From Pseudomonadota bacterium (GTDB lineage: Bacteria; Pseudomonadota; Gammaproteobacteria; Burkholderiales; Gallionellaceae): a stretch of 64,000 nt of DNA. This document shows positions 51,364-59,469 of the stretch, piece after piece. Where the stretch lies: contig JAJXVB010000001.1 in assembly GCA_021782365.1 (NCBI GenBank), forward strand, positions 124,001-188,000. The letters run 5' to 3'. Both the position numbers and the translations under genes were made by a program. Under the pieces are notes generated by a model. The model saw nothing but the letters and a program-made list of their open reading frames with translations. It was not told the origin of the DNA and ran no database searches. How positions within the stretch are numbered: position 1 is the first letter of the stretch; every line of letters begins with the position of its first letter.

Positions 51364-51711
51364 CTAGTTGCCGCGACCAAGAATGCCCAGCAGCACAAGC
51401 GCATGGCTGTGATTCTCGTCTTTGGCGGCATAAATCAGGGTCACTTTTTCCTTGCGGGATAGCTTCTGCAACTCTGCCAATGCAGGATTGCCCTCGAGTT
51501 CAAATCGATATCGCTCTTGGAACTCCGGCCACTTTTCCGGGTCATGCCCATACCACTTGCGCAACTCAGTGGACGGCGCAACGTCTTTCATCCACAAATC
51601 GATGCTTGCCTCATCCTTCGTTACTCCGCGAGGCCAGAGGCGATCCACGAGAACACGCATGCCGTCCGTAGATTCTGGCGTTTCGTAAATCCGCTTGATC
51701 GATACGCTCAT
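51364..51711 (-). CDS. DUF488 (YeaO-like) protein
   Basis: 115 residues from the ATG at 51711 (GGTGGGC upstream); an ATG at 51723 is an alternative. VSIKRIYETPESTDGMRVLV, DRLWPRGVTK and the LRKWYGHDP box are typical of the short DUF488 family (YeaO-like), cytoplasmic proteins of unknown role. First of a run of small accessory genes on the minus strand. Confidence 0.85.
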   Translation of the reverse strand: MSVSIKRIYETPESTDGMRVLVDRLWPRGVTKDEASIDLWMKDVAPSTELRKWYGHDPEKWPEFQERYRFELEGNPALAELQKLSRKEKVTLIYAAKDENHSHALVLLGILGRGN

Positions 51712-51868
51712 GACGCCCACCATATGTTTGCAGGAAAATTCGCAATTCGCGCATCGTGCACCGGACGAAATATCAAGTCAAACCGCAAGTCAGGGAAATC
51801 CAGCGAATCATGTCCAGCCTTGCATCCGTCGAAGCTGCCAGCCATGCAGCTGAATTTTTTGTTTGCGA

Positions 51869-52375
51869 CTAGGGCAACACCATAGCCGATTTGAACCCGC
51901 CGTGGTGCATCACCTCGCGCAACAAGACGAGGCCCAACACGAAAGATGCAGTCATCGGGGACCGGCTCAGCTTTTCGGGCAAGCCGCTTGCGACATCCGC
52001 CAATTCATTGAACAGGCGCTCAACAGCCTCGATTGAAAAGTCGCCGCCGCTCGCATCAGCGACTTCTTTCAAGACACAGACCAATTCCGAATCTCCCACT
52101 CCGAGCCTGGCGCCCCCGGGAAGACCGCGGATGGACGGCATGATCAGATCTTCGATTCCGGCGATCACACCTTCCAGCATTGCACCGGTCACACGGCCAC
52201 GGGCAAGCATGTCCCGGATGCCAGCAACCGAACCGACGCGAATCTCGCGAGCTGCGCCCTCCTCCACTGGCACGAAGAGACTTAAAGCGTCTCCGTCGAG
52301 TTGCAATCGCACGATGTCGCCGCTGCCGGTTTTTGTGTTATCGATCATCGACCATTCGCGCGCCTTCTTTTGCAT
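51869..52375 (-). CDS. Hypothetical protein, unrecognised
   Basis: 168 residues from the first ATG; a start at residue 10 is possible. Acidic, without signal peptide or membrane segment. An N-terminal beta-rich part (IVRLQLDGDALSLFVPVEEG) precedes a helical body; a Gly-rich loop (RGLPGGARLGVGDSE) lies in the middle. I do not recognise the family. It stops 146 nt before the DUF488 start; the cupin gene upstream ends 22 nt before its start, so the two may be co-transcribed. Confidence 0.6.
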   Translation of the reverse strand: MQKKAREWSMIDNTKTGSGDIVRLQLDGDALSLFVPVEEGAAREIRVGSVAGIRDMLARGRVTGAMLEGVIAGIEDLIMPSIRGLPGGARLGVGDSELVCVLKEVADASGGDFSIEAVERLFNELADVASGLPEKLSRSPMTASFVLGLVLLREVMHHGGFKSAMVLP

Positions 52376-52396
52376 CTTCAGAAACGCCTTTTAGCG

Positions 52397-52828
52397 TCAC
52401 TTCGGAGCGCTCGGTACAAGCCCATAGCGGCCCATCACTTGTGCAAGCAACGCCTTGTCGGGCGGGCCTCCGGCGCCGACCACAGCGGCGACATCCCTGA
52501 AGAATTGTGCGCCAATGTCAGGGGAGTTGAAGATCAACGCACGCGTTGGTTTCTCAAATGGATTGGCGAAAGCGTGAACGGTTCCTTTGGGTGTATACAT
52601 CGTTTCTCCGGGCTTCAGATCCCGGGTCTCGGCGCCTACCGTATAGCGCAGCATACCCTCCATGACGTAAATGATCTCTTCATTGTCTGTGTGGCTATGC
52701 GGAGGAGGGACATTGGAGCCGGGAGGAACGGTCAGTTCAAAAACACCGGCCGATCCGGTTTTTGATCCGTCGATCAGGTAGCGAATGGTGAGTTGGCCGA
52801 CATGGATTTCAGAGGCATTCATGGACAA
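52397..52828 (-). CDS. Cupin-fold protein
   Basis: 143 residues in one cupin domain. Motif 1 PPHSHTDNEEIIYVMEG (two His and Glu as metal ligands), then PKGTVHAFANP for motif 2 with the last His. Many such proteins are small dioxygenases, isomerases or sensors; no specific function can be named. It lies upstream of the 168-residue unknown gene on the same strand. Confidence 0.85.
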   Translation of the reverse strand: MSMNASEIHVGQLTIRYLIDGSKTGSAGVFELTVPPGSNVPPPHSHTDNEEIIYVMEGMLRYTVGAETRDLKPGETMYTPKGTVHAFANPFEKPTRALIFNSPDIGAQFFRDVAAVVGAGGPPDKALLAQVMGRYGLVPSAPK

Positions 52829-52921
52829 GTCTCCAAAGAAGATGAAGCATTGAAAAAGCCGAACGAGGTTGCAGAAAAATCCCCATCATTCGCGCATCGT
52901 ACATCGGACTATCCGGCGATG

Positions 52922-53542
52922 CTACCGTTCTGGATCCGGCCTAACACAGGGACGCGCATTCCATGATGCGATAACCGGAACGCCAGGGTGATGTGGGTCG
53001 AAGGAAAGGATGCTGAGCGACGCCGTGCCGAGCGAAAAATGCCTAGCCTCGGCAACCGCCAGGCCGATCCAGCGAACGGCTACGGCACTGCCGATCTGGC
53101 CATGCGCGAAAAGCGCGATATTTCCCTTCATCGTTTTCAGCCGAGCAATCAGACGATCCGCGCGCGCAGAAACCTGTTCCGGCATTTCGCCGCCGGGACA
53201 ACCATCCCGGTAAACAGTCCAGTCCGGAAACTGCCTGTGGATCTCCGCAGAACGCTTACCTTCATAATCGCCGTAATCCCATTCGGAAAGCTCGGGAGTT
53301 ATTTCCGGATCTACGCCCAGCCCGGCCAATTCACAGGTTTGCAGCGCGCGTCTGAGCGGGCTGCTCATCACATGCGCAAATTGAATCTCCCTGAGGTGGC
53401 TGGCCAGTTCGCGCGCTTCGTTCTCGCCATGCTGCGTCAATGGAATGTCTGTGCGGCCGGTGTGCTGGCCGGCGAGCGACCACTCGGTTTCTCCATGCCT
53501 GAACAGAAACAGTCGCAGCGGGGTGGCTGGAATTGGTCTCAT
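52922..53542 (-). CDS. Histidine phosphatase (phosphoglycerate-mutase-like) family protein
   Basis: 206 residues. Catalytic FLFRHGETEW near the start, second Arg in SSPLRRALQT, acid Glu in LSEWDYGDYEG, and the late His in ALFAHGQIG. The motif set fits GpmB/CobC-type acid phosphatases acting on small phosphoesters. No cobalamin gene is near, so CobC activity is not supported. It ends 93 nt before the cupin start. Confidence 0.85.
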   Translation of the reverse strand: MRPIPATPLRLFLFRHGETEWSLAGQHTGRTDIPLTQHGENEARELASHLREIQFAHVMSSPLRRALQTCELAGLGVDPEITPELSEWDYGDYEGKRSAEIHRQFPDWTVYRDGCPGGEMPEQVSARADRLIARLKTMKGNIALFAHGQIGSAVAVRWIGLAVAEARHFSLGTASLSILSFDPHHPGVPVIASWNARPCVRPDPER

Positions 53543-53999
53543 GATATGCTCGATTCCTGCTGAGGAGCTGAAGGTTGATTCTGCACATTTCGCAAGGGTT
53601 CTGCAAACATTCGATACCAGACGAAATTCATGGAGTCCAGCGGGTTAAGCGGCGGCTGGATTTTTCCGTGGCACCGCATGAAGGCACCATCCTCCAGGAG
53701 TTAAATGTCGTAATGTGAGACCTGACCCCAGCCCTGCGTGCGGCCACTCAAGAAGCGCATGCGGTGCTGGCGTTGTCGGCATTTGAGCCGACGACATGGA
53801 CCTTGGTGCGCTTTCGCATGTGGCGCGACTCCAGGTCGCTCCCGGATGCCGCCAATGTTCAGGCATACAGCGTGCAGCATGTCTCCAATCCTGCGGGCGG
53901 CTAGTCCACAGTAAACTTGCTTGCCATTCAATGTCCTCGTATCGGTTCAGCATCAGCAACCGGACATGGGCGGGTGGATTGGCACAGACTGATTGAGCA
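53543..53999. other. 457-nt stretch without a confident gene, left part of the island
   Basis: Small open frames exist on both strands (for example 53645-54028 minus, 127 codons), but none resembles a known protein and they overlap each other in different frames. The stretch carries one copy of the GTGAGACCTGACCCC repeat (53687-53735) and a perfect hairpin GTCGGC-ATTTGA-GCCGAC (53778-53795). It looks like debris of mobile or repeated DNA. Confidence 0.5.
53687..53735. repeat. Island repeat, copy 1
   Basis: 49 nt that match copy 2 at 55645-55693 at all but two positions, in the same orientation. The core AATGTGAGACCTGACCCCAG is shared with the repeat end at 56160-56185. Confidence 0.8.
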
Positions 54000-54410
54000 T
54001 CATAGGATAGGCTTGAGAACCATCGCAAACGAAATAACTATGTATATGAGAGTTTTCAGGATCAGCCACAAGCGTAACGATTGAAGTGCAGCGGAAAATC
54101 CATTGGCGAGATCTTCCTCTCGTTTGTCGGCCCAAAAGTGGTCAAAGGCTTGCACGAACAAGTAAATGGCAATCGATATCTGCATCCAAAGTGAATTTAG
54201 GAAGCTGCCATTCTGAACATACAGGATTACACCTCCTGAAATCAGGACCGTCCATCCACCGACAGCAGCCTGGAAGTGGAGATCGCTGAGCATTTTCCTT
54301 CCTGCAGGTTCGCGAGAAAAGACCAACCACCGAGGTGCCAGAAGGAGAGGCCCAATGAGTGCAATTGCCCCGACGATATGAATTGCCTTGGCGATCAGGT
54401 AAGCGTTCAT
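54000..54410 (-). CDS. Small four-helix membrane protein (DUF2269-like)
   Basis: 136 residues with four hydrophobic helices (about 5-25, 48-66, 75-92, 110-130) and the HIVGAIALIGPLLLAPRWLV start seen in DUF2269/CopD-like membrane proteins. Function unknown. It starts 54 nt after the GFA-like gene on the same strand, and could be another cassette gene although no attC follows it. Confidence 0.6.
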   Translation of the reverse strand: MNAYLIAKAIHIVGAIALIGPLLLAPRWLVFSREPAGRKMLSDLHFQAAVGGWTVLISGGVILYVQNGSFLNSLWMQISIAIYLFVQAFDHFWADKREEDLANGFSAALQSLRLWLILKTLIYIVISFAMVLKPIL

Positions 54411-54464
54411 ATGGTTAGAGTACGCAACTCACTGCGAAGCGACATTGGTTGAGCGACATGTTTG

Positions 54465-54863
54465 TTATCTACCCGGTTGCCACTCTGAGTAAGAAGGAAC
54501 GCCCTCACGGTCGGTCAACCACGGAACGTCGTGCGAGCGCCAGATATGCATAGCCGGTCTTTCACCTGGATCATCATTCAAGGTCGCGACGCGCAGAATG
54601 ACATGAGCTTGTGTGGGGTGCTCCGCAAGGACATGCGAGCCGCAGATGGAACAGAAGCGAAGCAGTTTCCCAGGCGTCGGCTCAAACGACGAGAGCTTCT
54701 CTTCGCCCTTTACCCACCGAAAGTGCTCTCGCATCACTCCTGCCGTAGAGACGAATGCGGCCGCATTCGCTTTGCGGCAACTCCGACAATGGCAATGTGC
54801 TATAGGCATATCGAGTTGATCGATCTCGTATTCAACCGCGCCGCATAGGCAACTTCCGTTCAT
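54465..54863 (-). CDS. GFA-family zinc protein (DUF636, glutathione-dependent formaldehyde-activating-like)
   Basis: 132 residues with the full set of GFA zinc ligands: GSCLCGAVEYEI, HCHCRSCRK and FCSICGSHV. Most members have no proven activity despite the name. The start lies 34 nt after an integron R'-like core (GTTGGGC, 54897-54903 minus), and the stop codon lies inside AGATAAC, an R''-like core. Both fit a former cassette gene. No complete attC was found at its 3' end. Confidence 0.85.
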   Translation of the reverse strand: MNGSCLCGAVEYEIDQLDMPIAHCHCRSCRKANAAAFVSTAGVMREHFRWVKGEEKLSSFEPTPGKLLRFCSICGSHVLAEHPTQAHVILRVATLNDDPGERPAMHIWRSHDVPWLTDREGVPSYSEWQPGR

Positions 54864-54908
54864 TCAAAATCCTTTCTGTGCAGGTGAAGGTATGATGCCC
54901 AACGTGCT

Positions 54909-54980
54909 AGCTAACCGGCGCGTTAAATTGCGGACCGCCGCTGGATTGCGACAAGAAAAGTCCAATGAACATAGCTAGCA
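54909..54980 (-). repeat. Decayed integron attC site
   Basis: Minus strand order: TGCTAGC (R'', where AAC has become AGC), GTTCATTGGAC (L''), a 24-nt middle, GTCCGCAATTTAAC (L'), the 6-nt spacer GCGCCG and GTTAGCT (R'). L'' and L' pair with two small bulges. Spacing and orientation match the better sites upstream, but the broken R'' makes it likely inactive. Confidence 0.45.
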
Positions 54981-55063
54981 TGAATACCTCAAAAATCTAG
55001 TGACAAGTGACTAACAGCCTCGTTAGTTCTGAGTTTGGCGTGATGCCGCCATATCAACGTTAA

Positions 55064-55471
55064 TTATGTTGCTGGATAAGTGGAAAACTGATCTGCTACC
55101 GCCCACCATTTTCCTCCTTCCTTTACAAACACGAACATATCGCGGCCACCGAGATTGATTGTTTGGCCGCCCATATTGAACGACATATCGAAGTAATAGG
55201 TGACCACGGCTGTGTTGCCGTAAATCTGGATTCTGGGATCAACTTCCTTCCAGTGGTGAATCTTGGCAGCCTTCGCGAAATTGTTCCATGACTTGAAACA
55301 GGCCTCCCTGCCTTCGAGTCGCTCACGATCCGTTGCCGTAATGGCCACCATGCCTTTGTGAAAGTAGTTGTTCAGGTCTTCAGGCTTTCCTTTTGTCCAG
55401 GCGTCATTCAAGGCGCGCAAGGCCTGCCACACTTCCTGTTTCGCCGGTTCATCGAATTGAATGCTCATGGA
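55064..55471 (-). CDS. NTF2-like (SnoaL/DUF4440-type) small protein in a cassette
   Basis: 135 residues from the ATG at 55471. NTF2-like cone fold: a start helix (EVWQALRALNDAWTKGKPED), YFHKGMVAITATDRERLEG, AVVTYYFDMSF and a final strand set WWAVADQFS. Such proteins are isomerases, dehydratases or binding proteins; this one cannot be assigned. An in-frame ATG at 55504 inside the attC core GTTATGT would add 11 residues. It follows attC at 55501-55560 on the minus strand, so it is the next cassette gene. Confidence 0.75.
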   Translation of the reverse strand, partial: SMSIQFDEPAKQEVWQALRALNDAWTKGKPEDLNNYFHKGMVAITATDRERLEGREACFKSWNNFAKAAKIHHWKEVDPRIQIYGNTAVVTYYFDMSFNMGGQTINLGGRDMFVFVKEGGKWWAVADQFSTYPAT

Positions 55472-55500
55472 TTCATCTTCCCGTGGATTGGTTTTAAGCA

Positions 55501-55560
55501 ACATAACGTTAATTTCAGCGGCGCGAATCTGCGAGCGTCCGCTAAAACGTCTTGTTGGAC
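55501..55560 (-). repeat. Integron attC site
   Basis: 60 nt. Minus strand order: GTCCAAC (R'', exact consensus), AAGAC, GTTTTAGCGG (L''), 17-nt middle, CCGCTGAAAT (L'), TAAC, GTTATGT (R'). L'' and L' pair over 10 bp with two G-T wobbles. It lies between the disrupted cassette (right) and the NTF2-like cassette (left). Confidence 0.7.
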
Positions 55561-55644
55561 GTGGCTTCATTGCAACTCTTTCTCCCAGAATCCCATAATA
55601 CCTCTGGTCTTCCAAAATTTTGAGGGTCAAGTCTCACAATCCAA

Positions 55645-55693
55645 CATCCTCAAGGAGTTAAATGTAGTAATGTGAGACCTGACCCCAGCCCTG
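55645..55693. repeat. Island repeat, copy 2
   Basis: 49 nt, two differences from copy 1 at 53687. Its AATGTGAGACCTGACCC part can pair with the inverted GGGTCAAGTCTCACA at 55624, giving a stem of about 15 bp with a single mismatch. Confidence 0.8.
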
Positions 55694-55740
55694 GTTGGCG
55701 ATGCAATTTTTCCAGGTCCAGAATTCTTTTGACCGGAAAT

Positions 55741-56133
55741 TTAATCATCTGCATGCAAGAAGAGATCGTGTCCGTACGAGTTATCTATTACGCAAAGCCA
55801 GTGACCACTTGGATTCTTCTTGAAAACATAGGTTGCGTTCCTATGGATCGGTGGCACATCAGGCGCAGACACGATTGTCTTCGCCAACACCAAGGCTGTA
55901 TCTTCAGACTCCAAAATTTTCATTCCAGCCTGCTTCACATCCAGCTTATGGTTGAAATGTGCGGCAATGGCTTCAAAGGCTTTTCTGATTTGGGTCTTGC
56001 CTGTGGCATTCATTCCCGGCTTTATGACAAGCACGGCGTCATCGGAATAGATATCGATCAAAGTTTCGAAATCTTCACGGTTGATTGCCAAGTCCGCCTT
56101 TTCGATCTGCAGTTCTATCGGATGTCGATCCAT
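55741..56133 (-). CDS. DUF4440/SgcJ-type NTF2-like protein inside the inverted-repeat element
   Basis: 130 residues, cytoplasmic. The start helix IEKADLAINREDFETLIDIY, then YSDDAVLVIKPGMNATGKTQ and the late WLCVIDNSYGHDLF strand set are typical of the DUF4440/SnoaL-like family of small NTF2-fold proteins. No catalytic function can be named. It is the only gene between the inverted repeats at 55624 and 56181 and thus the apparent cargo. It is related in fold, though not closely in sequence, to the cassette gene at 55064. Confidence 0.75.
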   Translation of the reverse strand: MDRHPIELQIEKADLAINREDFETLIDIYSDDAVLVIKPGMNATGKTQIRKAFEAIAAHFNHKLDVKQAGMKILESEDTALVLAKTIVSAPDVPPIHRNATYVFKKNPSGHWLCVIDNSYGHDLFLHADD

Positions 56134-56137
56134 CGAG

Positions 56138-56281
56138 CTATTCTCTGTTGAGACCTATTGTTAGATTGTGAGACCTGACCCCAGCATTTTCAATTTTATT
56201 TCGTGAATAAAGACCACTAATATCAACAGACTGGCAAAGTGTCATTTTCCACGCTAATAAATTATCTTCGATTTCTCTCAT
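56138..56281 (-). pseudogene. Cassette gene broken by the inverted-repeat element
   Basis: 47 codons from the ATG at 56281, five bases after the attC core GTTAAAC. The first 32 residues (WKMTLCQSVDISGLYSRNKI in the middle) look like real protein and recall the start of a longer cassette-borne hypothetical family with SVDISGLYSRNKxxHKWK. After Asn 32 the frame runs into the repeat end (GVRSHNL...) and stops at 56138. The matching 3' part of such a gene was not found, apart from a short open stretch before the attC at 55560. Confidence 0.55.
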
Positions 56282-56285
56282 TGGC

Positions 56286-56355
56286 GTTTAACGTCTGAGT
56301 TCAGGGGCGCTGCGCAGCCTCATCGCGCAGCGTCCGGTGGACCGTAGGGTTATGC
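56286..56355 (-). repeat. Integron attC site
   Basis: 70 nt. Minus strand order: GCATAAC (R''), L'' including GTCCA, stem CGCTGCGC/GCGCAGCG with a 9-nt loop, L' TGAAC, spacer TCAGAC, GTTAAAC (R', exact consensus). It shares the arm AACGTCTGAGTTCAGGGGCG with the site at 57105. The stop codon of the preceding 252-residue ORF lies in R''. Confidence 0.75.
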
Positions 56356-57108
56356 GTCGGCTTGCAGTACTTCAATTTCGAATGCCTCTTCATAAAGCTC
56401 CTCGCTGGGTAGGAAGGCACTTGCAATGCGATGCATATGTCTGACCTCAATCGCTCCATCGAGCCGAAAATGCTTCTGGTACTCGATGCCCTTAACTTTC
56501 CTGGATTGATTCAGCAATACTTCGAGATCGGCTTCTGAAAATTGGACTGTGGCTCCATCGAGGTGGCACACATGTGTTTTGAAGTCAGGAGACAGGGCGT
56601 GGATGTAGTGGGCATATTTAGCTCCTGGCGTGTACTGCCAGACCTGCAATTGGAGCATTTGTCCTCTGACATCGTCTGTTTTGTGGACATGCACGAGCAA
56701 GGTCTTGTACGTTCCGCCTTCCTGACACTCAGGAAGGTAGTACTTCGACGTCATGTGTCCATTGGCCAATGCGATGGAAACGGCGCGGTCAAATGGAACT
56801 CCAAACGCCGGGGCGGAGCCCCAAATCGACGGCGCAAACGTCACGTGAATGGCTGCACTATTCCAGAGGTCTTGATGGGCAATAAGGTAATCGCAGACGA
56901 CATCGCATTCCGAAACCGGAAAAAGCGCAATGGTCTCCCGGCCTGCTAGAACCAGCTCGTATCCGTCGCTGTTTGACTCAAGGCAAATCTCTGAACAGGG
57001 GAGCAAACCGTCCTTCGTTATTCGCTGCGCGCAATGCGACTCGAATGCGCCTCTGTTCGCCAAGAACTTGCGAACGGCACCACCGGCAAACGGGCTTCTA
57101 CGACGCAT
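56350..57108 (-). CDS. Unrecognised 252-residue cassette protein
   Basis: 252 residues from the ATG at 57108. That ATG is the centre of the attC core GTTATGC, and the stop TAA (56350) is the centre of GCATAAC, so the frame fills the whole 819-bp cassette. There is no Shine-Dalgarno sequence. No signal peptide or membrane helix. The body is mixed alpha/beta with many His and Tyr, for example KTLLVHVHKTDD, YAHYIHALSPDFKTHVCH and a late helix SEADLEVLLNQSRKVKG. I do not recognise it. It is the cassette after the reverse transcriptase, so a partner role is possible but unproven. Confidence 0.7.
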   Translation of the reverse strand: MRRRSPFAGGAVRKFLANRGAFESHCAQRITKDGLLPCSEICLESNSDGYELVLAGRETIALFPVSECDVVCDYLIAHQDLWNSAAIHVTFAPSIWGSAPAFGVPFDRAVSIALANGHMTSKYYLPECQEGGTYKTLLVHVHKTDDVRGQMLQLQVWQYTPGAKYAHYIHALSPDFKTHVCHLDGATVQFSEADLEVLLNQSRKVKGIEYQKHFRLDGAIEVRHMHRIASAFLPSEELYEEAFEIEVLQADA

Positions 57109-57176
57109 AACGTCTGAGTTCAGGGGCGGAGAAAAAGCGCAGCTTTTTCGGAGTCCACTGGAACGATTTGTTCGGC
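57105..57176 (-). repeat. Integron attC site
   Basis: 72 nt. Minus strand order: GCCGAAC (R''), AAATC, GTTCCAG (L''), middle with stem AAAAAGC/GCTTTTT, CTGAAC (L'), TCAGAC, GTTATGC (R'). L'' has one extra base relative to L', the usual extrahelical base that sets strand choice. It lies 31 nt after the reverse transcriptase stop. Confidence 0.78.
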
Positions 57177-57207
57177 GACATCGCCGCTGACTCATCGCTG
57201 TGTGCGA

Positions 57208-58704
57208 CTAATACGCCCATGCATTTTCCTTAAACAATTCCACTTCGTCTGGTTGAATCACTTCCTTCGCGTCACCTGCATCAGCAATAACAATCTTGCT
57301 GGCATCCAAGGCTTGCTTTAATGCCTCGCTTGCAATCCAACTAGAGTCCCAGAGCTGAGATGATGCCCCATTCACGATCTGACAAATTGGTTCTTTGCTC
57401 TCAAACTTGATACCAACGACTTTCGGTTGCGTGACCCGCTGGAGCCATATTTCAAGGTAACTGTTGTACGGGACTCGCGCCATTTTTTCGCGTACTTTGT
57501 GCCATAAGCGCACTTTCTCCTCACTCGGTGCGAGTGAAATAAGATGGCTCAAAATGCCGGCCACAGCCGGAAACGTAGAGGGCGAAACAAACGCTATATC
57601 TGTTGCAATTGCAACCTGCACATCAAGGTCATCGGGAGCCTCAGTCTGCTTTGAAACATTGGTGTGAAGCTCGCCAACTAACCTGCGCAAAGCTCCGCTG
57701 TTTGGAAAACGCTGGCCGAAAGAATGCAGCCTTAAGAGCTGCTTTTGAATTGTCTTTGCGTTAGATGTTCCGAGGTCCTGCAACTCAATGCCGGCCAACT
57801 TATCTGGCTTTATCGACCCTTCCACTACGTTTCTGCATGAAAACGTCTTTGACACTCCGAGCCTCATCCCTACTGCTCGTAATTTATCGCTGACTATTTT
57901 TAGGATCGCTTCTGCACGCTCGTCGTTATTTGCAAATATTCTATAGTCGTCCCTGTACCGAAGTATTCGGATATCGGAGCTTCCCTTGAGTTCAAGATTT
58001 ATCTGCTCATCGACGTATCCAAGGACGATTTCGGCGATGAAGTCCATAAGGACCGACCCTTGTGCAATACCATTGGTCTGGCCATAACGGCTAGATTGGA
58101 TATGGAAATCAATTTTGTTTCCAAGCAGGGATTTATTTGTTTTTTCTTCCTTTGCTTTCGGTAAACCGTGCAACGCCCAAGCAATACTATGGGTATAGAG
58201 AGAGCCATAACAGTCAGTCACATCGGTATGAAGAAGATGGCTAAACTCCAGTGAATAAGTCAGCGACCTTTGCTCAACGTTTTGCCACCAGCTCTTGATT
58301 TGAGTTGCAACATCAGTCTGGTGATCGACTGACATCACCGGTGCGCTACAACAATCAACTACACCGCCCTCAAATTCTTTGAGTCGCGCTCTTATGCTTG
58401 CCCAGTTCGTCTCCTCACAAATCACATTTACTAACGAGACGTAAATGGCTGGATGCATCAATTCATAGGGCCGCCAGGCAAACTTGCCATCTTTGTTTGC
58501 AATGAAGTTGTAGTTTACGTTCGGAAGTTCGTTGGGATTTGCGTTTTTAAACTGAGCAAAGTTTTCGCCCTTAAGAACGGTCGAGACGCCATTTAGTATT
58601 GGCTCGAAACTGACGTATTTGGGTAGGTCCCCGTTGAAGTAGCTGCTGCCCTTCAGGAAATGGGCTCTCGCCTCTTCGTTGGAAAGGTCAATCAATCGTT
58701 TCAT
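57208..58704 (-). CDS. Reverse transcriptase in an integron cassette, Abi/DRT-like defence candidate
   Basis: 498 residues. RT core at about 60-300: motif A TDVTDCYGSLYTH (160-172, Asp 161), GQTNGIAQGSVLMDFIAE (208-225) and the catalytic YRDD (250-253) in ILRYRDDYRIF, then LGVSKT. The THSIAWALHG segment after motif A recalls Abi and other defence-associated (DRT/UG) RTs rather than group II intron or retron enzymes. The last 200 residues are helical, with no maturase, endonuclease or integrase domain. No msr/msd-like RNA was seen nearby. An attC follows its stop by 31 nt, so it is a cassette gene. Anti-phage function is inference. Confidence 0.85.
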   Translation of the reverse strand: MKRLIDLSNEEARAHFLKGSSYFNGDLPKYVSFEPILNGVSTVLKGENFAQFKNANPNELPNVNYNFIANKDGKFAWRPYELMHPAIYVSLVNVICEETNWASIRARLKEFEGGVVDCCSAPVMSVDHQTDVATQIKSWWQNVEQRSLTYSLEFSHLLHTDVTDCYGSLYTHSIAWALHGLPKAKEEKTNKSLLGNKIDFHIQSSRYGQTNGIAQGSVLMDFIAEIVLGYVDEQINLELKGSSDIRILRYRDDYRIFANNDERAEAILKIVSDKLRAVGMRLGVSKTFSCRNVVEGSIKPDKLAGIELQDLGTSNAKTIQKQLLRLHSFGQRFPNSGALRRLVGELHTNVSKQTEAPDDLDVQVAIATDIAFVSPSTFPAVAGILSHLISLAPSEEKVRLWHKVREKMARVPYNSYLEIWLQRVTQPKVVGIKFESKEPICQIVNGASSQLWDSSWIASEALKQALDASKIVIADAGDAKEVIQPDEVELFKENAWAY

Positions 58705-58905
58705 TCGCCCACAAGCCTATTCATGACGCCGAATGTAATGTAGACACCAACAAAAGACATAATCTTTTAGAGGGGCTGGTGCCTAAACGGGTGTAAAAAA
58801 CACAAGCTTGTTCCATATCAGTCATTGGCATTAGCGCGCCTGCTTTGCGAATAATTGGATTAAACGTTATATTCACTTTCATCGCAAGCGATAAGCCGCA
58901 TAGTG

Positions 58906-59469
58906 CTACTTGAATTTCCTCTTGAACCTGTAGCGGCGCCAGGCCCAGACAGCGAATCCCAAAAGCAGCATCGCGGCGAGCAGCACCTCTTCGGCCTTCT
59001 TCAAGTCGTTGAAGATCAGCGTCAGCGCATTGCCGAAGAGATAGCCAGCACTTCCTATCCCAGCCGCCCAGATCACGGCGCCAATAAAGTTGAACAGCAT
59101 GAAGCGCCATGCGAGCACACTGCCCATGCCCATCGCCATCGGCCCCACCGTGCGAAAGCCATACAGGAAACGTATGCCGACGATCAGGAGCTCGTGGTAG
59201 CGCTCGATCAACAGGTCGGCGCGCCTGAACACCGGGAGCAGTCTCGGAAATTCCGACAGCACCCATGAGCCGTGCTTTCTTCCCAGCCAGAAATAGATCT
59301 GATCGCCGAGAAAGCCGCCTACCAGCGCGATCAGGATCACCCAGTGCAGCTCGAGGTATCCCTGGAACGCGGAAAACCCCGCCAGCACCAGCACCGTCTC
59401 GCCTTCGAGCAGCGCGCCTACAAAGAGCGCGAAGTAGCCGTAGTGCTCGATCAACGAGGAATAATTCAT
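58906..59469 (-). CDS. DedA-family membrane protein
   Basis: 187 residues with five or six hydrophobic segments, the SNARE-associated (VTT) fold: EGETVLVLAGFSAFQGYLEL, GGFLGDQIYFWLGRKHG and the Arg motif RFLYGFRTVGPMAMGM. DedA proteins move phospholipids or isoprenoid carriers across the inner membrane and support proton-motive force. The 201-nt gap to the reverse transcriptase gene on its left marks the edge of the accessory island; this gene starts the core block that follows. Confidence 0.9.
   Translation of the reverse strand: MNYSSLIEHYGYFALFVGALLEGETVLVLAGFSAFQGYLELHWVILIALVGGFLGDQIYFWLGRKHGSWVLSEFPRLLPVFRRADLLIERYHELLIVGIRFLYGFRTVGPMAMGMGSVLAWRFMLFNFIGAVIWAAGIGSAGYLFGNALTLIFNDLKKAEEVLLAAMLLLGFAVWAWRRYRFKRKFK

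Follow-up and report, generated by a model that had tools for sequence, protein, structure and literature searches.

A reverse transcriptase-like DNA polymerase of the AbiP2 type, a single-gene anti-phage system, is very probably the first cassette of a chromosomal integron in the 64-kb window (the whole stretch of 64,000 nucleotides that we analysed), acquired from outside and probably fixed by now. The array is read in the order attI, AbiP2, attC, ORF, attC, SnoaL-like ORF and probable attC (Table 1). It had originally been predicted that a defence-family reverse transcriptase (RT) is carried here as an integron cassette, and this reading is supported by the assignment to the AbiP2 family, by the presence of both attC and attI and by the matching cassette borders. 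Judging from TypA, whose relatives with an organism name at 90-92% identity were, among the matches listed, in 11 of 13 cases Gallionella sp. and in 2 of 13 Nitrosomonadales (the closest relatives among the matches listed being 94-99% identical), the host is a Gallionella-like bacterium.

Table 1. Features of the integron array and its flank (positions in the window)
Feature	Position	Strand	Basis
VTT-domain (DedA-type) membrane protein, chromosomal flank	58906..59469	-	no integrase between the VTT gene and attI
attI with leader, just before the RT cassette; core ATT, not GTT	58734..58855	-	homology to attI sites of the genus
Integron cassette 1, 1623 nt: TTCGGC start, RT gene, first attC	57111..58733	-	direct reading
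AbiP2-family reverse transcriptase-like DNA polymerase, 498 aa	57208..58704	-	PADLOC PDLC03744, PDB 7r08, invariant residues
First attC, R'' GCCGAAC ... R' GTTATGC	57105..57176	-	covariance model, 27.3 bits
Integron cassette 2, 819 nt	56292..57110	-	span between the R' cores of the first and second attC
Cassette-2 ORF, 252 aa, ATG within the R' core of the first attC	56350..57108	-	ORF reading
Second attC, R'' GCATAAC ... R' GTTAAAC	56286..56355	-	covariance model, 30.1 bits
SnoaL/NTF2-like ORF, probable cassette 3	55741..56133	-	SnoaL_3, 32 bits; between the second and third attC
Probable third attC, weaker	55501..55560	-	covariance model, 19.7 bits

Identity of the polymerase

The gene is open for 498 codons from its ATG, and both the YRDD motif (RYRDD at residues 249-253) and the motif A aspartate (Asp161) are intact, as had been stated at the outset. 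The AbiP2 profile of PADLOC, PDLC03744, gives 637.9 bits over residues 1-495 of 498, a full-length match which bears out the initial impression of an Abi/DRT-type enzyme, whereas the DRT6, DRT4, UG15 and AbiK polymerases reach at most 166 bits in the same collection. The alignment of 69 sequences has Y30, D161, D252 and D253 in every row. Residue 1 of our RT pairs with entry residue 32 of the Abi-P2 structure (PDB 7r08), Tyr61 of the latter corresponding to Y30 and Tyr46 to H15, and by homology to Tyr61 the residue Y30 is the putative priming tyrosine. According to the available part of PMC9508834, the Y61F variant of Abi-P2 lost DNA synthesis and the Y46F variant kept it.

A structure predicted from 69 sequences has a pLDDT of 92.3 and shows helices between residues 300 and 471, and the alignment to 7r08 spans residues 1-491, in agreement with the helical C-terminal domain proposed earlier; a first model from 17 close sequences (pLDDT 49.1) was discarded. 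In its full-length homology, fold, catalytic aspartates and priming tyrosine the protein resembles Abi-P2 of phages P2-EC30 and P2-EC58, to which it is 28.5% and 29.5% identical, respectively; the carrier differs, being a P2-like prophage for Abi-P2 and an integron cassette for our RT. The group II intron profile TIGR04416 gave 38.8 bits (cut-off 300) and the retron St85 profile 27.7 bits (cut-off 235), both far under cut-off, and an Rfam scan returned tRNAs only, with no intron RNA or msr/msd over threshold around the ORF, which places the RT outside these families, as the original prediction supposed.

attC sites and cassette borders

The consensus of the attC boxes is RYYYAAC/GTTRRRY. A strict scan with it missed both the first and the second attC of the window, because their cores are GCCGAAC/GTTATGC and GCATAAC/GTTAAAC. 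An inverted-repeat scanner with matching R boxes was also rejected, the real sites being swamped (89 matches in 850,376 bases, 53 in mono-shuffled sequence). Since the R'' box of an attC stems from one cassette and its R' box from another, the matching-box scanners were replaced by a covariance model. It was trained on attC sites from the surroundings of integron integrases in other genomes of the genus (29 sites, 13 stretches), with no site from the window or its genome; 29 of 30 sites were used, L165:8227 being dropped as one base off. These training sites were picked by pattern and by eye with the half-site of the window already in view, so that the independence of the model is partial and its construction partly post hoc. 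Under a hand-written structure the training sites show a covarying stem: 54 cells are changed on both stem sides, versus 27.3 +/- 3.5 when shuffled, and 85.3% of the stem cells are paired, versus at most 53.4% when the stem is slid.

Run over the 64-kb window with E up to 10, the model returned the three sites of Table 1 and one further match (E 1.3). The first site has an E of 1.5e-4 in the window and 0.006 over the genome, the second 3.2e-5 and 0.001, and the third 0.012 and 0.465. The attC suspected at 57105 is thus real beyond chance by this measure, and the RT does end 31 nt before it, with the stop at 57208 and the R'' box from 57176. Single-strand folding compared with shuffles supports the first site (z -3.0 and -2.6) and finds the second no better than shuffles (z -1.5 and -1.4). 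The R'' box GCCGAAC of cassette 1 is complementary to the cassette's own start TTCGGC, and the R'' box GCATAAC of cassette 2 to its own start GTTATGC.

The product of the cassette-2 ORF matched no Pfam, NCBIfam or PADLOC family over cut-off; its own family counts 66 proteins at E <= 0.001, including its own record. As a partner of the RT it was rejected, having no relative at E <= 1e-4 in the other fetched loci. The sequence GGGGTCAGGTCTCACA occurs in this region four times within two mismatches versus 0.01 expected (window 53714-53729, 55623-55638, 55671-55686 and 56167-56182), with one inverted pair between the SnoaL and DUF4440 ORFs, and looks like a REP- or MITE-type element.

attI and the missing integrase

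On the minus strand the RT is preceded by ...GTGTCTACATTAC-A-TTCGGC, and this stretch aligns with attI sites of the genus at scores above the maximum of 200 shuffles made for each comparison: with the intI-adjacent attI of genome G095 at 94 of 129 positions (score 71, shuffle maximum 23), with a site in G004 at 101 of 124 (132, maximum 29), with one in G010 at 46 of 58 (56, maximum 30), and with the attI-like site before another array of the same genome, on contig C21, at 78 of 89 (123, maximum 27). Among 20 intI-adjacent stretches of the genus the motif CTAC(A/T)TTACGTT is exact in nine and variant in most others, L163 and L164 having neither form. It follows from this homology before the RT that the RT is cassette 1. 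A mutation could account for the A in the core of the window attI, yet ATTCGGC likewise precedes the RT in the Thiocystis locus L079, and a mutated attI in this genome is therefore not required to explain the base. Insertion at attI is most likely, by the homology of the flank, the core being ATT.

In the assembly, which is 93.7% complete in 32 contigs, so that an absent intI could fall in a gap, there are seven intI matches at E <= 0.001, none over the TIGR02249 cut-off; 14 control genomes have such sub-cut-off matches likewise, and we take the seven for other tyrosine recombinases. No credible intI remnant was seen beside the window or the C21 array (best E 0.11). The locus is similar to a CALIN, an attC cluster without integrase in the terms of the available part of PMC7923331, in having attC sites with no intI over cut-off in the assembly, but it differs in having an attI and so resembles an integron minus its integrase. 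Given an attI core other than GTT and an assembly in which no integrase turned up, the RT cassette is probably fixed now. The attI is the position beside the usual cassette promoter; a promoter scan predicted none before the RT on its strand, and one site on the other strand, versus a shuffle mean of 2.6.

Genomic context and origin of the gene

Of the 76 genomes of the genus, 38 match the integrase at E <= 1e-60 and 37 exceed the cut-off; the genome of the window, G004, G010 and G031 have no match at E <= 1e-60. G004, G010 and G031 nevertheless have one, ten and two attC matches at E <= 0.1, respectively. The ten of G010, a 99% complete genome, lie on five contigs (C55, C17, C27, C34, C49), and an attI-like site with a GTT core was seen at C55:139099. 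Relative G031 lacks window 51711-58905 between the flanking genes. The cargo of this segment includes SnoaL, DUF4440 and GFA ORFs, to which inspection by eye alone adds cupin-like and phosphoglycerate-mutase-like ones, cargo of a kind found in cassettes; the covariance model found no attC in it besides the three described. A second attI-led array of the same genome (G000, contig C21:189212-194717, L190), without adjoining integrase and near the contig end, has at least seven attC matches at E up to 0.1 after its attI-like site (150 of 1192 candidates scored).

The GC content of the RT gene is 46.7% versus 57.0% for the window. AbiP2 RTs occur in 2 of 76 genomes of the genus at E <= 1e-30, the other copy being 44% identical, and in 4 of 300 genomes of the order at E <= 1e-40. 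A protein search gave at least 4663 relatives at E <= 1e-20 (8000 candidates scored), and the best match among those 8000 is 92% identical and comes from Aromatoleum petrolei. In a tree of 83 rows, made by a quick method, with 28 of 80 inner branches open and 7 of 26 viral loci taken in, the window RT falls within a 27-row clade (SH-aLRT 95) carrying nine phylum labels, and its nearest neighbour is from Geothrix (Acidobacteriota, 86%). Most of the differences from the Geothrix copy are synonymous (pN 0.079, pS 0.70), and much of this history may predate the insertion in this genome. The RT was acquired from outside, most likely by integrase-mediated insertion at attI.

AbiP2 in cassettes of other bacteria

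From 271 relatives in a genome scan 80 loci were kept. On these loci (850,376 bases) the covariance model, which is tuned to one genus and will miss other attC types, gave nine attC matches at E <= 1, each on the same strand as the RT: six are at most 40 nt from the RT, in 5 of 80 loci (L033, L041, L043, L045, L046), two belong to the array of L033 and one to L090. In 75 of the 80 fetched genome loci no such attC adjoins the RT, and none was found at E <= 1 in 26 viral and three same-order loci. The border test took in 72 of the 80 genome loci, L085-L088, L092-L094 and L110 being left out as partial RT matches (L199 is the row left out of A3). Complementary 8-base borders flank the RT in 6 of 76 rows (L033, L039, L040, L046, L054, L067), where the match of L054 looks like chance, and direct-repeat borders in 1 of 76. 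The two tests combined give cassette signs in 8 of 80 genome loci, whose hosts carry the labels Pseudomonadota, Thermodesulfobacteriota, Abawacabacteria and Eisenbacteria; since MAGs are among them in several cases, an individual contig may bear a wrong phylum label. Four loci (L066, L032, L061, L079) were added by eye only, which makes 12 of 80 and leaves 68 with no cassette sign.

With up to two mismatches allowed, the leader TTCGGCGTCAT occurs in the last 60 nt ahead of the ATG in 5 of 75 loci (L032, L033, L041, L046, L079), with a match rate of 1.3% in random windows; it was chosen after the leaders had been viewed, and the test is post hoc. Counting the window, 13 rows were labelled by us as cassettes, and 11 of these stand in the 27-row clade. 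The cassette label changes nine times on the tree versus a mean of 12.3 when shuffled, a count as low being reached in 3 of 500 shuffles, so the cassettes are clustered but do not form one lineage.

Discussion

An alternative is that the attC-like sequences are unrelated repeats and the RT is an ordinary AbiP2 gene of the chromosome or of a defence island, which would agree with the 75 of 80 loci, and with the viral and same-order loci, where the model finds no attC beside the RT. This explanation is already disfavoured, and we regard it as extremely improbable in view of the two attC sites with E of 3.2e-5 and 1.5e-4, both in the direction of the RT, the attI homology before it, the matching borders and the strand of all nine attC in the AbiP2 loci, six of them no more than 40 nt from the RT. 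That a group II intron, retron or DGR RT has entered an attC or its vicinity, in the manner of group IIC introns, is practically untenable: the RT does adjoin an attC, group IIC introns are linked with integrons in the available part of PMC7923331, and the NCBIfam group II model does respond, but with 38.8 bits against a cut-off of 300, and no intron RNA domains or msr/msd reached threshold.

More serious is the idea of a relic without present function, on the way to loss, with no integrase and perhaps no promoter. It is in line with the lack of an intI over cut-off, the ATT core, the lack of a predicted promoter, the weak third attC, the repeats nearby and the absence of the region from relative G031; we still hold it unlikely, since the frame of the RT is intact with its invariant residues kept, and its differences from the Geothrix copy are for the most part synonymous, though many of them may predate the insertion. 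It might also be imagined that AbiP2 of this clade has a role other than defence, for instance in cassette stability or in handling attC DNA in its single-stranded form, since it recurs in integrons and belongs to a class of enzymes that synthesise single-stranded DNA. What is known of AbiP2, however, is a role in abortive infection, orf570 of P2-EC30 conferring T5 resistance (available part of PMC9508834), and cassette signs appear in only 12 of 80 genome loci, which makes such another role very unlikely.

We favour an externally acquired, putative defence cassette. Its transcription would start from a promoter within or upstream of attI, where none is predicted. By analogy with Abi-P2 and AbiK, which form trimers and hexamers, respectively (available part of PMC9508834), the RT protein would oligomerise, prime on Tyr30 and produce untemplated single-stranded DNA attached to the protein, and upon phage infection it may abort or block phage growth.

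Integrons were reported as carriers of phage defence in 2025 by Darracq, Kieffer and Getz, whose work is described in the citing papers PMC12409362, PMC12444791 and PMC13092281. Compared through these citing descriptions, our case is similar in that the putative defence cassette consists of one gene and has an attC of its own, and differs in that the gene, of about 1.5 kb, codes for an RT-type Abi polymerase. A survey of RTs (PMC8934634) names prophage and CRISPR-associated AbiP2, and the word integron is absent from its main text; our literature search, a partial one and no proof of absence, found no report of AbiP2 in an integron. The present locus links a defence polymerase whose structure is solved with a mobile platform that is being studied for its carriage of phage resistance, and it offers defined loci from several phyla at which cassette-borne and other copies of AbiP2 can be compared. 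It also suggests that defence cassettes can outlast the loss of the integrase in environmental bacteria.

We would suggest, quite tentatively, that the AbiP2 clade of about 498 aa might be an integron-adapted defence gene, going back to one ancestral cassette with the TTCGGCGTCAT leader about 29 nt before the ATG in several loci, spread between phyla via integrons and locked at attI in some hosts by integrase loss.

Two single loci of the survey may be recorded here. In Spirulina sp. CS-785/01 (L090:223-2966) a fragment of an integron integrase stands at the edge, 59.7% identical over 67 aa, and an attC lies about 3 kb before the AbiP2 RT, with none next to the RT. In Aeromonas rivipollensis (L036:8512-8895) a SnoaL-like gene 48% identical to the cassette-3 ORF of the window is found about 1 kb from an AbiP2 RT, a neighbourhood that may be due to chance.
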